A stretch of DNA of 64,000 bases, from the NCBI GenBank assembly GCA_900095875.1, contig LT608311.1:682001-746000 (forward strand), given 5' to 3'. Below the pieces are notes generated by a model that saw nothing but the letters and a program-made list of their open reading frames with translations, was not told the DNA's origin and searched no databases. The translations under genes were made by a program, and so were the position numbers. Position 1 is the first letter of the stretch; every line of letters begins with the position of its first letter. The DNA comes from Caecibacter massiliensis. Lineage in GTDB: Bacteria; Bacillota; Negativicutes; Veillonellales; Megasphaeraceae. Shown here piece after piece: positions 53,078 through 60,777 of the stretch.

Positions 53078-53093
53078 GGAAATCCTCCTTTGT

Positions 53094-53124
53094 AAAAAAA
53101 GACCTTCGCCGAAAGGCAAAGGTC
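53094..53124 (-). terminator. Attenuator terminator of the pyr leader
   Basis: Stem GACCTTTGCC / GGCGAAGGTC with loop TTTC and a seven-T run, just before the pyrB Shine-Dalgarno. The 5' arm can instead pair with the upstream AGGCTAAAAAGGGACATAT segment, forming an antiterminator. Confidence 0.9.
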
Positions 53125-53157
53125 ATATCAAGGCACACGTAACATATGTCCCTTTTT

Positions 53158-53171
53158 AGCCTCTCTGGACT
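53158..53171 (-). promoter_or_regulatory. PyrR-binding loop 2 (anti-antiterminator)
   Basis: The minus strand reads AGTCCAGAGAGGCT, the PyrR-binding consensus. Its 3' half is shared with the antiterminator, so UMP-bound PyrR here would favour the terminator. Confidence 0.88.
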
Positions 53172-53209
53172 ATATTAAAGGTACGTATAGAAATTAACAG
53201 AATCAGCGC

Positions 53210-57083: not shown

Positions 57084-57527
57084 TTACATGGCTTCATGGC
57101 TAATAGCCTGCACGGCCCGGTCATATACATCCTGCAACGTATGTTTTTGCAATTCTTCTTCAAACTTCTGCTGTATATCATCCAGAATTCCTTCCAGACT
57201 CTGATGAATATTTCTGCCAACAGGACACTTATCATTGGGGTGCTCATGAAAATGGAACAGGCTTTCATCAGGCTTCTTTTCTACGGCCTGGTAAACATCG
57301 AGAAATGTAATTTCCGTCAAAGGCCGCGTCAGGGTAATGCCGCCGGGACCACGCTTAATATCAATAACGCCAGCCTCCCGGAGCTGGGACATGATATTTC
57401 GGATAATAACTGGGTTATTTCCTACACTGCCTGCCAAAAAATCACTAGTTACTTTATAATTGCCGGAAAAATACCGGACAGCTGTCAATACATGTATCGC
57501 AATAGTAAATTTTGTAGAAATCTGCAT
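57084..57527 (-). CDS. Rrf2-family transcriptional regulator
   Basis: 147-residue Rrf2 protein. The N-terminal winged HTH reads STKFTIAIHVLTAV and NPVIIRNIMSQLREAGVI with the wing RGPGGITLTRP. The C-terminal dimer helix follows HPNDKCPVGRNI. Only one cysteine is present, so it lacks the three-cysteine [2Fe-2S] ligand set of IscR and NsrR and belongs with YwnA-like members. It is divergently transcribed from the DUF1858/hemerythrin operon 264 nt away and is the likely regulator of that operon, by analogy with NsrR and ytfE. The signal is unknown. Confidence 0.88.
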   Translation of the reverse strand: MQISTKFTIAIHVLTAVRYFSGNYKVTSDFLAGSVGNNPVIIRNIMSQLREAGVIDIKRGPGGITLTRPLTEITFLDVYQAVEKKPDESLFHFHEHPNDKCPVGRNIHQSLEGILDDIQQKFEEELQKHTLQDVYDRAVQAISHEAM

Positions 57528-57559
57528 GCTTCACACCTCTTTGTCAATCTATCATTCAT

Positions 57560-57573
57560 TATACAAAAGTATA
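57560..57573. promoter_or_regulatory. Candidate autoregulatory operator of the Rrf2 gene
   Basis: Inverted repeat TATAC-AAAA-GTATA directly overlaps the minus-strand TATAAT -10 box, about 30 nt before the rrf2 start. Binding here would block its promoter (inference). Confidence 0.4.
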
Positions 57574-57688
57574 TCAGGAAAGCCCCCACTTGTCTCTCTT
57601 TTTAGCAGATGTAGATAAACAAAATCTTGTTTTATGTTTTTAGTCAAATATCATTATGAAGTCAAAATCTGGGAAAGTCTTTTGCCTC

Positions 57689-57735
57689 CTGTTGTAATAA
57701 CAACAGATTTACAGGATACATCCGTGCTATAGTAC
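57689..57735 (+). promoter_or_regulatory. Promoter and candidate operator of the DUF1858/hemerythrin operon
   Basis: Inverted repeat CTGTTGT-AATA-ACAACAG (57689-57706) abuts a -35 TTTACA (57708-57713), with a -10 TAGTAC after 16 nt (57730-57735). A symmetric site at the edge of a weak -35 is a typical regulator target. It is not the same sequence as the repeat at the rrf2 promoter. Confidence 0.5.
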
Positions 57736-57790
57736 AGACAGACAAAGATAAGTCACATAAATCCATAGATATTTTCAACAGGAGGAATAT

Positions 57791-58015
57791 ATGATGAATG
57801 AAAAAACAATGACCATAACAGAAGATATGCTCATGGGAGACATTATGCGCAGCTACCCCGAAGTAGTAGACACATTATTGGAACAGGGTATGCATTGCCT
57901 GGGCTGCCCGTCATCCCAGCAGGAAAGCTTGGCAAATGCCTGCTATGTACATGGCCTCGACGCCCGCACCGTAACGGCCGCCGTCAACGCCACCATTCAG
58001 GCACATCGTGCATAA
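57791..58015 (+). CDS. DUF1858-domain protein
   Basis: 74-residue cytoplasmic protein consisting of a single DUF1858 domain: TITEDMLMGDIMRSYPEVVDTL followed by the cysteine motif GMHCLGCPSSQQESL and a further cysteine in NACYVHG. The domain is often found with hybrid-cluster or hemerythrin proteins and resembles the ScdA N-terminal cysteine domain. The function is not established; the CxxC could bind a metal or act in redox chemistry. The frame opens with two ATGs after AGGAGG. It is the first gene of a three-gene unit. Confidence 0.85.
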   Translation: MMNEKTMTITEDMLMGDIMRSYPEVVDTLLEQGMHCLGCPSSQQESLANACYVHGLDARTVTAAVNATIQAHRA

Positions 58016-58030
58016 AGGAGGAAGCAGATT

Positions 58031-58621
58031 ATGAGTAAATTTTTAGGACCTGTCCATTTCTGGTTATATCACAAAATACAGTTTCAGGAATCCCTTATAG
58101 ACGCTCTCATTTCCTGCGCCGTACAGAAAGGCTGGAACGATGAAGATCTGACCCGTTTCAGTTGCCCGGACCGCCGTCAGCTTGATGAAATCATTGACGA
58201 AACCAATATTCATGGCTGGCTGCAGACACGCATCCAGGATGCAGAAACCCGGTATGCCAACCTCGTCCTGTACCTTGCCGGCTCTGATGAAACCCGTCTG
58301 AAAGTGCTGGAACAAGCAGCTGGCGATTTTGGTGCCGCCCAAAACCTGCAAGCTGCTACCGCGCCGGAAGCATTCCACCGTCTCGATGACCTGCTCCTCG
58401 ACGGTATGCCGTGTGATCAGATTAACCGCGTCTCTCACAGCAGTGATGATGTCATTACCTGGATACAGTCTGCTGACATCCACAGTGATTACTGGCAGGG
58501 ACATGGTCAATGGTATTATCTGCTCCGTCAGGCTCTGATAGCTGGCCTGTTATCCCACACCGATTATTCATTTCTTCATAAAGAAGACGGCTCATTCCAT
58601 ATCGTGAAAAAAGCCGCCTGA
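58031..58621 (+). CDS. Uncharacterised protein between DUF1858 and hemerythrin genes
   Basis: 196 residues, family not recognised. It is soluble and predicted mainly helical, and starts SKFLGPVHFWLYHKIQFQE, a distinctive aromatic/His segment. Possible metal ligands are scattered (H8, H13, H in NIHGW, CDQINRVSHSSDD, ADIHSDYWQGHGQWYYLL, SHTDYSFLH), but no known motif emerges. GGAGG precedes the ATG. The 15- and 16-nt gaps to its neighbours show that it belongs to the operon, so a joint role with the hemerythrin and DUF1858 proteins is likely. Confidence 0.85.
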   Translation: MSKFLGPVHFWLYHKIQFQESLIDALISCAVQKGWNDEDLTRFSCPDRRQLDEIIDETNIHGWLQTRIQDAETRYANLVLYLAGSDETRLKVLEQAAGDFGAAQNLQAATAPEAFHRLDDLLLDGMPCDQINRVSHSSDDVITWIQSADIHSDYWQGHGQWYYLLRQALIAGLLSHTDYSFLHKEDGSFHIVKKAA

Positions 58622-58637
58622 GAAAGGTAGGATACGT

Positions 58638-59198
58638 ATGTATTGTACAGAAGTTATGGTAAAACAGCATGCCAATATTTCGCGGATGCTGAAGGTAATA
58701 GAAAAGGCCTGCTGTGCTATTTTGGATGGTTCCCCCATCGATTGCAATGAATTTACAGAAATTCTGAAATTTATCCGTACCTATGCAGACGGACATCATC
58801 ACCGCCGGGAAGAACTTGTCTTATTTCCCGAAATGGTACAACATCTGGAAAAAATCGCCTCCGTCATCATTAATCACGGCATGCTTGTTGAGCATGATCT
58901 CATCCGTGCCCATGTCCGTGCGTTGGATGACGCATTGAAAAACTATCAGGCTCATCCTGATACGTTATATAAACTCCAGATCCTGACAGAAGCCATGGCC
59001 TATGTAAACCGCCTGCAGGCTCATGTCGATAAAGAAAATACGGTCGTATACCCTATGGCAGACCGCAGCCTGCCGGCAGAGATAAAAGAAAAGATTGATG
59101 CTGCAGTTCATAATATGGAAAAAGAAGAAGGACAGGATTTTGCTGCTCCTTATCTGTCTCTGCTGGAACGACTGGAACATAAATATCATATCGCATAA
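58638..59198 (+). CDS. Hemerythrin-domain protein
   Basis: 186-residue HHE cation-binding protein. The di-iron ligand pattern is visible: KQHANI (helix 1), HHHRREELVLFPEM with an HxxxE, NHGMLVEHDLIRAH (helix 3) and HVDKENTVVYPM with a second HxxxE. Such proteins bind oxygen or nitric oxide, or repair iron-sulfur centres (Ric/YtfE/ScdA). Unlike those, it lacks an N-terminal ScdA-type cysteine domain; a cysteine-motif protein is encoded separately at the start of the operon. It is the last gene and is followed by a terminator. Confidence 0.9.
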   Translation: MYCTEVMVKQHANISRMLKVIEKACCAILDGSPIDCNEFTEILKFIRTYADGHHHRREELVLFPEMVQHLEKIASVIINHGMLVEHDLIRAHVRALDDALKNYQAHPDTLYKLQILTEAMAYVNRLQAHVDKENTVVYPMADRSLPAEIKEKIDAAVHNMEKEEGQDFAAPYLSLLERLEHKYHIA

Positions 59199-59209
59199 TA
59201 AGAATAGAC

Positions 59210-59244
59210 AAGGACCGCCGCCCCATATCCGGGCAGCGGTCCTT
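59210..59244. terminator. Bidirectional terminator
   Basis: AAGGACCGCCGCCC / GGGCAGCGGTCCTT with one bulge, T-rich on both sides, between the convergent hemerythrin and SDR genes. Confidence 0.78.
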
Positions 59245-59263
59245 ATTTATTACACGGTCCAGG

Positions 59264-60152: not shown

Positions 60153-60181
60153 TTGACAAGATGGGTGGAAGATGTTACAAT
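60153..60181 (+). promoter_or_regulatory. Promoter of the rubrerythrin gene
   Basis: TTGACA (60153-60158), 17-nt spacer, TACAAT (60176-60181). No regulator site (for example a PerR box) was recognised. Confidence 0.85.
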
Positions 60182-60237
60182 ACAAACATCGAAAGAGAAA
60201 TGATTTAGTTGATAAAGAATATAGGAGGTTATACGTT

Positions 60238-60777
60238 ATGGAATTAAAAGGATCAAAGACTGAAAAAAATTTACAGGCTGCATTTGCTGGTGAATCTCAG
60301 GCACGCAATAAATACACCTACTATGCCAGTGTAGCTAAAAAAGCCGGTTACGAACAAATCAAAGCATTCTTCGAAGAAACAGCCAATAATGAAAAAGAAC
60401 ATGCAAAAATCTGGTTCAAACTGCTCAACGGTGGCGAATTGCCAAATGACATCAATGCATTAAAAGACGCCGCTGCCGGTGAACATTATGAATGGACCGA
60501 AATGTATCCGACGTTTGCAAAAGAAGCTCGTGAAGAAGGCTTCAATACGATTGCCTATTTATTTGAAAAAGTAGCAGAAATCGAAAAACATCATGAAGAA
60601 CGGTATTTGGCACTGCTGGCAAATGTAGAAAACGGTACCGCTTTCAAGAAACCTGAAAAGAGAACATGGGTCTGCCGTAACTGTGGGTACATCGTCGAAG
60701 CTGATGAAGCACCGAAAGTTTGCCCCGTATGCGCTCATCCCCAGTCCTTCTTCGAATTGAAAAACGACAACTATTAA
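60238..60777 (+). CDS. rbr: Rubrerythrin
   Basis: 179-residue rubrerythrin, a hydrogen-peroxide reductase of anaerobes. The N-terminal ferritin-like di-iron domain has [27 protein letters not shown] and [13 protein letters not shown] with the paired ExxH ligands. The C-terminal rubredoxin-like domain has [11 protein letters not shown] and [10 protein letters not shown]. The ATG is 9 nt after GGAGG; the longer upstream frame covers the promoter. It is a single gene with its own promoter and terminator, adjacent to the hemerythrin block. Confidence 0.97.

Follow-up and report, generated by a model that had tools for sequence, protein, structure and literature searches.

In the HcpR regulons (hcp-frdX and others), Crp/Fnr-type palindromes stand ahead of hcp, ferredoxin and hemerythrin-like genes; the published survey gives GTAACnnnnGTTAC as the HcpR2 consensus and describes ferredoxin- and hemerythrin-like genes as frequent members (PMC1274295). 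The footprinted site of HcpR1 is reported as TGTGA-N6-TCACA (PMC5701242). HcpR of P. gingivalis is described as sensing nitric oxide (NO) through haem (PMC12750200), and a C. difficile hcpR mutant is described as NO-sensitive (PMC12915319). A second described system is Ric (YtfE/ScdA/DnrN), a repair protein for Fe-S centres; the ligands of YtfE are given as His84, His129, Glu133, His160, His204 and Glu208 (PMC9052748). Here we report on an operon of Caecibacter massiliensis that encodes a DUF1858 protein, a 196-residue (196-aa) protein of no named family, for which we use the working name MID, and a hemerythrin-like protein. It lies in a stretch of 64,000 nucleotides (contig LT608311.1, positions 682,001 to 746,000), which we call the window, and is divergent from a gene for an Rrf2-family regulator.

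We propose that the operon belongs, as a single transcription unit, to an HcpR-like nitrosative-stress regulon, and we give this reading, together with the mechanism set out in the last section, a probability of roughly 0.7. On sequence criteria, one box is common to the operon and to the hcp, flavodiiron NO reductase and ferredoxin genes of the same genome, with nearly the same spacing, and in relatives it also precedes Ric-type, AsrA and further ferredoxin genes. Comparison of gene neighbourhoods establishes DUF1858 and MID as a conserved pair whose catalytic partner changes: a siroheme nitrite/sulfite reductase, Hcp or a separate hemerythrin. Structural models predict an H-NOX/V4R-type fold for MID. 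A preliminary description of this DNA had suggested a nitrosative-stress role, which our results support. It had also singled out the middle protein as the novel part, and this was borne out: MID matched nothing in Pfam up to an E-value of 1, no NCBIfam family and nothing in PHROGs.

All four genes were confirmed as real at the positions given earlier. The Rrf2 gene (57084-57527, minus strand) is divergent from three tightly spaced genes on the plus strand, namely DUF1858 (57791-58015), MID (58031-58621) and the hemerythrin (58638-59198), with gaps of 15 bp between DUF1858 and MID and 16 bp between MID and the hemerythrin. Pfam E-values are 1.1e-31 for Rrf2, 4.6e-18 for DUF1858 and 2.8e-15 for Hemerythrin.

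The promoter palindrome and the genes behind it

Symmetric sites had been said to overlap both promoters. The site at 57689-57706 was confirmed: CTGTTGTAATAACAACAG is a perfect palindrome with 7-bp arms and is the sole match within two mismatches across the 64 kb (shuffled sequences average 0.10 matches, and 9 of 100 shuffles contain at least one). The site at 57560-57573 has arms of only 5 bp, which falls below the 6-bp minimum of our repeat search, and it found no support of any kind. Within the confirmed palindrome, the core GTTG-N6-CAAC at 57691-57704 is a candidate Crp/Fnr-type (HcpR-like) box. A −10 element, TATAGT (57728-57733, plus strand), is predicted from consensus and spacing 23 bp past the box.

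The box, with a TANNNT −10 element at 20-24 bp, precedes all 15 operons in which a free-standing DUF1858 gene is followed by MID, the window included; 200 single-base shuffles of these regions average 0.045 boxes, with a maximum of 1. The palindrome is kept ahead of the operon in congeners and in a second family, and as the box in locus L102, where a Crp/Fnr gene is divergent from DUF1858-MID. At 12 of the 15 loci an Rrf2 gene is absent from the examined flanks, which were at most 4 kb at each of the 124 (of 125) MID places in our neighbourhood survey.

A search for the box followed by N20-24 and TATANT gave 73 matches in 13 genomes, 7 of them in the window genome, and the reversed control pattern gave none. 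These genomes were picked for carrying the operon or DUF1858-MID, and 12 of the 13 have the free-DUF1858 operon. The gap between box and −10 element is exactly 22 bp in 35 of the 40 loci that we fetched (23 bp at the window site, G000:C2:739691-739733), which places the centre of the box near −41.5. This is the position of class II Crp/Fnr activators. Thus, the operon has a Crp/Fnr palindrome in common with hcp, at activator distance.

The targets in the window genome were assigned by inspection of start codons and ribosome-binding sites and named from family scans. They are hcp and 5-formyltetrahydrofolate cyclo-ligase, which share a palindrome, a flavodiiron NO reductase, a small ferredoxin, a siroheme synthase N-terminal protein, a GNAT protein and the DUF1858-MID-hemerythrin operon. 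Behind the 40 sites, the first genes encode ferredoxins (9), Hcp (7, one of them behind a cupin gene), flavodiiron NO reductases (3), cupins (3), Ric-type proteins (2), DUF2249 proteins (2), AsrA (2), flavodoxin-like proteins (2), a hemerythrin-PAS-DUF1858 protein (1), a Crp/Fnr protein (1), siroheme synthase (1) and other or unassigned products (7). Family scans were run on 28 of these 40 genes and the remaining names are by likeness; one of the two DUF2249 calls was checked and the other is by likeness. The two Ric-type proteins (L334 and L342, both in family f18) consist of ScdA_N and hemerythrin domains and score 190 and 184 bits against TIGR03652 (cut-off 204.7).

Some of these sites have features of their own. 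The palindrome of L310/L311 (G000:C2:1096918-1096987) faces hcp and, on the opposite strand, the cyclo-ligase gene, with separate −10 elements at equal distance. In two genomes of family f18 (L338 and L341) the box stands ahead of asrA, which encodes anaerobic sulfite reductase subunit A. The siroheme synthase N-terminal gene behind a box in the window genome (L313, G000:C2, about 1662 kb) lies about 13 kb from a Crp/Fnr gene, L304; the gene next to L304 resembles, by eye, one for haem synthesis.

Two Crp/Fnr proteins of the window genome, L304 and L305, encoded near C2:1648863 and C2:1767722, are candidates for the regulator. They score 221 and 152 bits against L031_3 and are similar to the regulators of L102 and of the Clostridium sporosphaeroides locus L031. 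A Crp/Fnr gene of genome G112, 60% identical to L305, carries the box (L329); no full box was found ahead of L304 or L305 themselves.

The likeness to the HcpR regulons extends to the regulator genes, since a Crp/Fnr gene is divergent from the pair in L102 and Crp/Fnr genes stand beside Hcp in L031. The C. sporosphaeroides Hcp-DUF1858 gene is preceded by GTAACcggtGTTAC, which fits the HcpR2 consensus, and this consensus also accompanies the Hcp-DUF1858/MID/HHE order of Faecalispora (L032). The site TGTGA-N6-TCACA stands ahead of the siroheme-type operons described below in 11 of 81 cases exactly, in 31 with at most one mismatch and in 46 with at most two (means of 20 shuffles, 0.0, 0.75 and 8.75). 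The regulon differs from the described ones in its box, which is GTTG-N6-CAAC rather than GTAACnnnnGTTAC, TTGACnnnnGTCAA or TGTGA-N6-TCACA, and in including the DUF1858-MID pair, which does not appear in the portions of the HcpR literature consulted. No earlier description of a GTTG-N6-CAAC Crp/Fnr regulon was found in the accessible portions of the open-licence literature searched.

DUF1858, MID and their changing partners

The first gene of the operon encodes a 74-aa protein with the motif CLGCP. It is a full member of DUF1858 (65.5 bits in Pfam, cut-off 32.2) and of TIGR03980 (83.8 bits, cut-off 44.95), which is named the 'hybrid cluster protein-associated redox disulfide domain'; the description line of that family does not mention the usual neighbour, MID. 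Solved relatives are 2k53 and 2k5e, and C-x-[GA]-C-P is present in 102 of 104 DUF1858 domains surveyed. The literature on this domain ties it to nitrogen oxides in two places: one is a Bradyrhizobium DUF1858 gene, which is given as dependent on NnrR and as having an NnrR box (PMC6710368), and the other is DrpB of nitrate-respiring Thermus (PMC6282519). A CxxU selenoprotein form of DUF1858 is also listed, which fits a redox role (PMC9312934).

At 96 of the 124 MID places, DUF1858 is encoded directly upstream of MID on the same strand, with a median of 27 bp (range 20-255) from the end of the domain to the MID start. Counted by hand, 27 family labels had a match, and these pairs occur in 24 of them. 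In 81 of the 96, DUF1858 forms the C-terminal end of a protein resembling siroheme nitrite/sulfite reductases; these fusions were found by an iterated profile, and one that was checked in Pfam reads NIR_SIR_ferr, NIR_SIR and DUF1858. In the other 15, DUF1858 is free-standing, and a hemerythrin is next in 14 of them. A third arrangement is seen in C. sporosphaeroides (L031) and Faecalispora (L032), where Hcp is fused to DUF1858 and followed by MID and a hemerythrin, with Crp/Fnr genes beside; in the L031 fusion, Hcp and TIGR03980 both score above cut-off. In L100, free DUF1858, MID and hemerythrin genes adjoin an Hcp gene. The middle gene is therefore conserved with one of its two neighbours, DUF1858, but with the hemerythrin at only 15 of 124 places; lack of conservation with both had been named beforehand as grounds for giving up the earlier reading.

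Relatives of MID occur in 121 of the 300 genomes of the class that we surveyed, the window genome included, and because of this spread we do not regard the finding as chance. Of 398 genomes sampled from the phylum, a profile found MID in 22, and 16 of these 22 lie outside the class, where several MID genes have no DUF1858 nearby. A scan of genome contigs gave two loci only. In families f14 and f86, MID genes stand without an adjoining DUF1858, and in f14 without the box as well. One MID gene, at L112 (G378:C10), is partial, and a 616-codon frame about 3 kb away from it encodes an H-NOX domain.

We used two alignments of MID. A1 has 58 members and excludes 3 of the 61 distinct sequences: L029, which is cut short, L040, which has a GTG start, and the divergent L071. 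A2 is a hand-picked set of 35, some from outside the class, that overlaps A1. Residues H9, K15, I60, H61, R74, G125-M-P-C128-D129 and W155 are invariant in all 58 members of A1; H9, H61, W63, R74, M-P-C-D and W155 are invariant in A2. Helices 1 and 3 repeat the pattern IHxWLxxxIxxxxxRE, 59 columns apart, and the A2 profile has no higher-scoring match to itself. The score of this repeat was not reached in any of 300 column shuffles, a null that is lenient because shuffling destroys helix periodicity. This repeat points to an internal duplication of a helix, with two matched histidines. A search of PDB sequences with the MID profile gave nothing below E 0.23, and no description of MID was found in the open-licence literature searched.

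MID had been called a His-rich helical protein of 196 residues. The length stands, and the protein has 10 histidines and 3 cysteines, but the AlphaFold model is an alpha/beta structure with four strands (pLDDT 95.2, pTM 0.91). A model of a longer relative (pLDDT 95.8, pTM 0.91) agrees with it in secondary structure. In Foldseek, the best 17 rows for the window model are H-NOX, Bet3/TRAPP or YslB, one of them titled only 'mutant transport protein', and unrelated proteins begin at row 18. For the second model, the 50 rows shown contain nothing but H-NOX, TRAPP, YslB and the phenol sensor PoxR, and H-NOX takes all of the first 21, with E-values from 2.1e-3. VIA-align gave the second model Z 9.0 to Bet3 and Z 8.2 to H-NOX 6bdd over 162 residues, and the first model 7.7 (Bet3) and 7.1 (H-NOX), values that may reflect shared arrangement alone. 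Across several H-NOX chains, 162-168 residues aligned with Z 7.8-8.2 at 3.9-4.4 Å. The predicted models thus have the H-NOX fold. As this fold is common to TRAPP proteins and phenol sensors, the statement concerns the superfamily; V4R and Bet3 have been argued to be related and to bind hydrophobic ligands (PMC2253512).

By sequence, MID is not an H-NOX. Pfam HNOB (PF07700) does not match the window protein, and the 17 families matched among the 58 members do not include it. A conserved proximal histidine before strand 1 was not found: at any position from 104 to 124, at most 9 of the 58 members have a histidine. YxSxR is present in 1 of 58 (A1) and 0 of 35 (A2) MID sequences, and in 9 of 11 H-NOX controls. 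MID also differs from H-NOX in its extra N-terminal IHxWL segment. Homology at the sequence level with H-NOX, V4R or ATC hydrolase gained no support, as profile comparison was not significant. The best of nine comparisons was ATC hydrolase (E 0.0048, probability 7%), and V4R gave E 0.27; six of the nine were unrelated controls, of which DUF1858 (E 0.01) and Crp (E 0.026) came close.

The hemerythrin, the Rrf2 neighbour and other explanations

The third gene encodes a 186-aa hemerythrin-like protein (PF01814). Its residues H11, H55, E59, H86, H129 and E133 are invariant in all 17 aligned sequences, a set that leaves out the broken G235 copy, and they form a four-His, two-Glu pattern in the order and spacing reported for YtfE (PMC9052748). 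In this respect the protein is of the YtfE/Ric kind, as had been proposed. It lacks the ScdA_N (DUF542) domain of Ric, since Pfam finds only PF01814 above cut-off, and its TIGR03652 score is 23.5 bits (E 3.9e-5) against the cut-off of 204.7. The window genome has a separate full-length gene for ScdA_N plus hemerythrin (L354:812-1540; G000:C2, about 174.5 kb; 188 bits in TIGR03652), and ScdA_N was present in 11 of the 18 genomes tested (the window genome and 10 of 17 others). The presence of this gene means that the operon adds to Ric in this genome and does not replace it, and we rejected the operon as a Ric replacement. The ScdA_N region of this Ric-type protein also gives matches, below cut-off, to DUF1858 (E 6e-5) and TIGR03980 (E 3e-7). 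These matches hint at a relationship between the two cysteine domains and lend some support to the kinship suggested earlier.

The protein encoded at 57084-57527 has been compared with NsrR, an analogy that was not supported. NsrR has three cysteines for a [2Fe-2S] cluster; the Rrf2 protein has one, as the preliminary description had correctly noted, and scores 22.1 bits in PRK11014 against 182. Its single cysteine lies in HEHPNDKC, which follows the SifR/YwnA pattern HxxPN[P/D]xC with D replacing the second P, and its closest PDB chains are 1ylf (E 1.3e-33) and YwnA (1xd7, E 8e-26). The motif of this class is given as HxxPNPxC, and SifR is reported to drop DNA binding once a quinone modifies its cysteine (PMC9218516). 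A SifR-type operator, TGTAA-N9-TTACA, had no match within two mismatches in 57528-57790; in the whole window there are 30 such matches against 20 expected, and none of 100 shuffles was as high.

Control of the operon by this Rrf2 protein through the palindrome had also been claimed. We rejected the palindrome as an Rrf2 operator, as it is kept at the 12 of 15 loci where Rrf2 is missing from the examined flanks and precedes hcp and the flavodiiron gene. Two other loci of the 15 have a divergent Rrf2 gene whose product is of a different type, having six cysteines, and in a congener (L064) the gene divergent from DUF1858-MID-HHE resembles an ArsR-rhodanese gene, labelled by eye. Thus, the regulator beside the operon is not conserved. 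We infer that the neighbouring Rrf2 protein serves separately, as a thiol or electrophile sensor.

Further features lie around the operon. A likely terminator, a strong hairpin of 16 pairs, stands on its 3' side (59208-59246); it was scored on the minus strand and would serve the plus strand. A rubrerythrin gene (60172-60777) lies 1 kb past the operon, beyond an opposing gene that resembles an SDR enzyme by eye. A PyrR-binding RNA element at 53092-53185 precedes pyrimidine genes.

Other explanations can be weighed against this evidence. The preliminary description had read the operon as a split Ric, in which the three proteins jointly replace YtfE/ScdA as an Fe-S repair unit under the divergent Rrf2. 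The ligand spacing of the hemerythrin, its weak similarity to TIGR03652 and the apparent kinship of DUF1858 with ScdA_N are what one would look for in such a unit. We nevertheless consider it improbable, given the Ric-type gene in the window genome and the palindrome at loci that lack Rrf2; moreover, at 80 of the 124 places the partner of MID is a siroheme reductase-DUF1858 protein and no hemerythrin follows. What survives of the idea is the YtfE ligand set.

It is also conceivable that DUF1858 and MID handle sulfite or persulfide, that the siroheme partner is a sulfite reductase and that nitrogen stress is secondary. The fusion of NIR_SIR domains to DUF1858, the AsrA and siroheme synthase genes behind boxes, the putative ArsR-rhodanese gene of L064 and the thiol-type Rrf2 of the window all agree with sulfur chemistry. 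However, Hcp, flavodiiron NO reductase and Ric-type genes have the same box, and Hcp itself bears a DUF1858 domain next to MID in L031. Additionally, a 300-aa siroheme protein of A. acetoxydans with the same two NIR_SIR domains, its hypothetical neighbour DEACI_1835, AsrABC and Hcp are reported to rise on nitrate (PMC10949509). A primary role in sulfur chemistry therefore seems to us improbable. A different proposal is that MID is a hydrolase of the V4R/ATC-hydrolase type, or a binder of hydrophobic ligands, whose placement has nothing to do with NO. One of 58 members matches PF14196 (E 0.0011), ATC hydrolase led the profile comparisons, and MID genes of one large family lack a DUF1858 neighbour. 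The PF14196 leads are weak and prove nothing, the scores lie near those of unrelated controls, and the pairing with DUF1858 and the regulon speak otherwise; we regard this proposal as very improbable.

A model for the operon

We favour membership in an HcpR-like nitrosative-stress regulon, although several observations weigh against it. In the survey, 28 of the 124 MID genes have no adjoining DUF1858 (22 of these 28 are in family f14), and an Hcp gene is found in the examined flanks of just 6 places. DUF1858 occurs in 290 of 300 genomes, so that its mere co-presence with MID is uninformative, and we dropped genome-wide co-presence as evidence. Conservation of the box rests on two genera plus L102, whose genome (G325) has no match to the full pattern. 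The box precedes just 1 of the 81 siroheme-type operons and none of the 28 MID genes that lack DUF1858; 35 of the 81 have no TGTGA-type box even at two mismatches. The Ric-type gene of the window genome is not among its seven matches, and the genes at 7 of the 40 box loci either were left without a call or have no evident part in nitrosative stress. For the fold, no Foldseek E-value is below 1e-3, the highest Z is 9.0, and profile comparison of MID with H-NOX, V4R and ATC hydrolase did barely better than controls. Last, the divergent L071, which is outside the alignments, lacks the N-terminal IHxWL motif with H9, though it keeps GMPCD.

Our model begins with NO or nitrite, which may switch a Crp/Fnr protein that would then activate the operon. 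The dithiol of DUF1858 and MID may together form a small, portable adaptor for redox reactions or for the handling of NO. MID may bind a ligand through His9, His61 and Cys128, our best guess being haem, siroheme or an iron-nitrosyl, and it could exchange electrons or NO with the CxxC of DUF1858; both the contact and the direction of flow are assumptions of the model. In other genomes the adaptor would be attached to Hcp or to a siroheme reductase, whereas here it would cooperate in trans with both Hcp and the Ric-like di-iron protein. The outcome would be the removal of NO or hydroxylamine and the protection or repair of Fe-S enzymes.

A more specific version of this model is tentative, and on balance we think it rather unlikely. 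MID would be a new family with the H-NOX fold that, unlike H-NOX, holds haem or siroheme with two histidines, on the duplicated IHxWL helices, and the invariant cysteine. With DUF1858, it would be the redox partner so far missing for Hcp and siroheme nitrite/sulfite reductases of strict anaerobes, shuttling electrons or NO between the dithiol and a metal centre.

The disposal of NO and hydroxylamine in strict anaerobes is only partly known, as are the electron donors to Hcp and to small siroheme reductases. As a widespread family with a predicted H-NOX fold, which travels with the redox domain of these enzymes and stands behind an hcp-type box, MID is a concrete candidate for a partner. Additionally, our survey gives the outline of a regulon in which the Crp/Fnr box is GTTG-N6-CAAC. 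The question of the partner thereby becomes testable in genetically tractable anaerobes.

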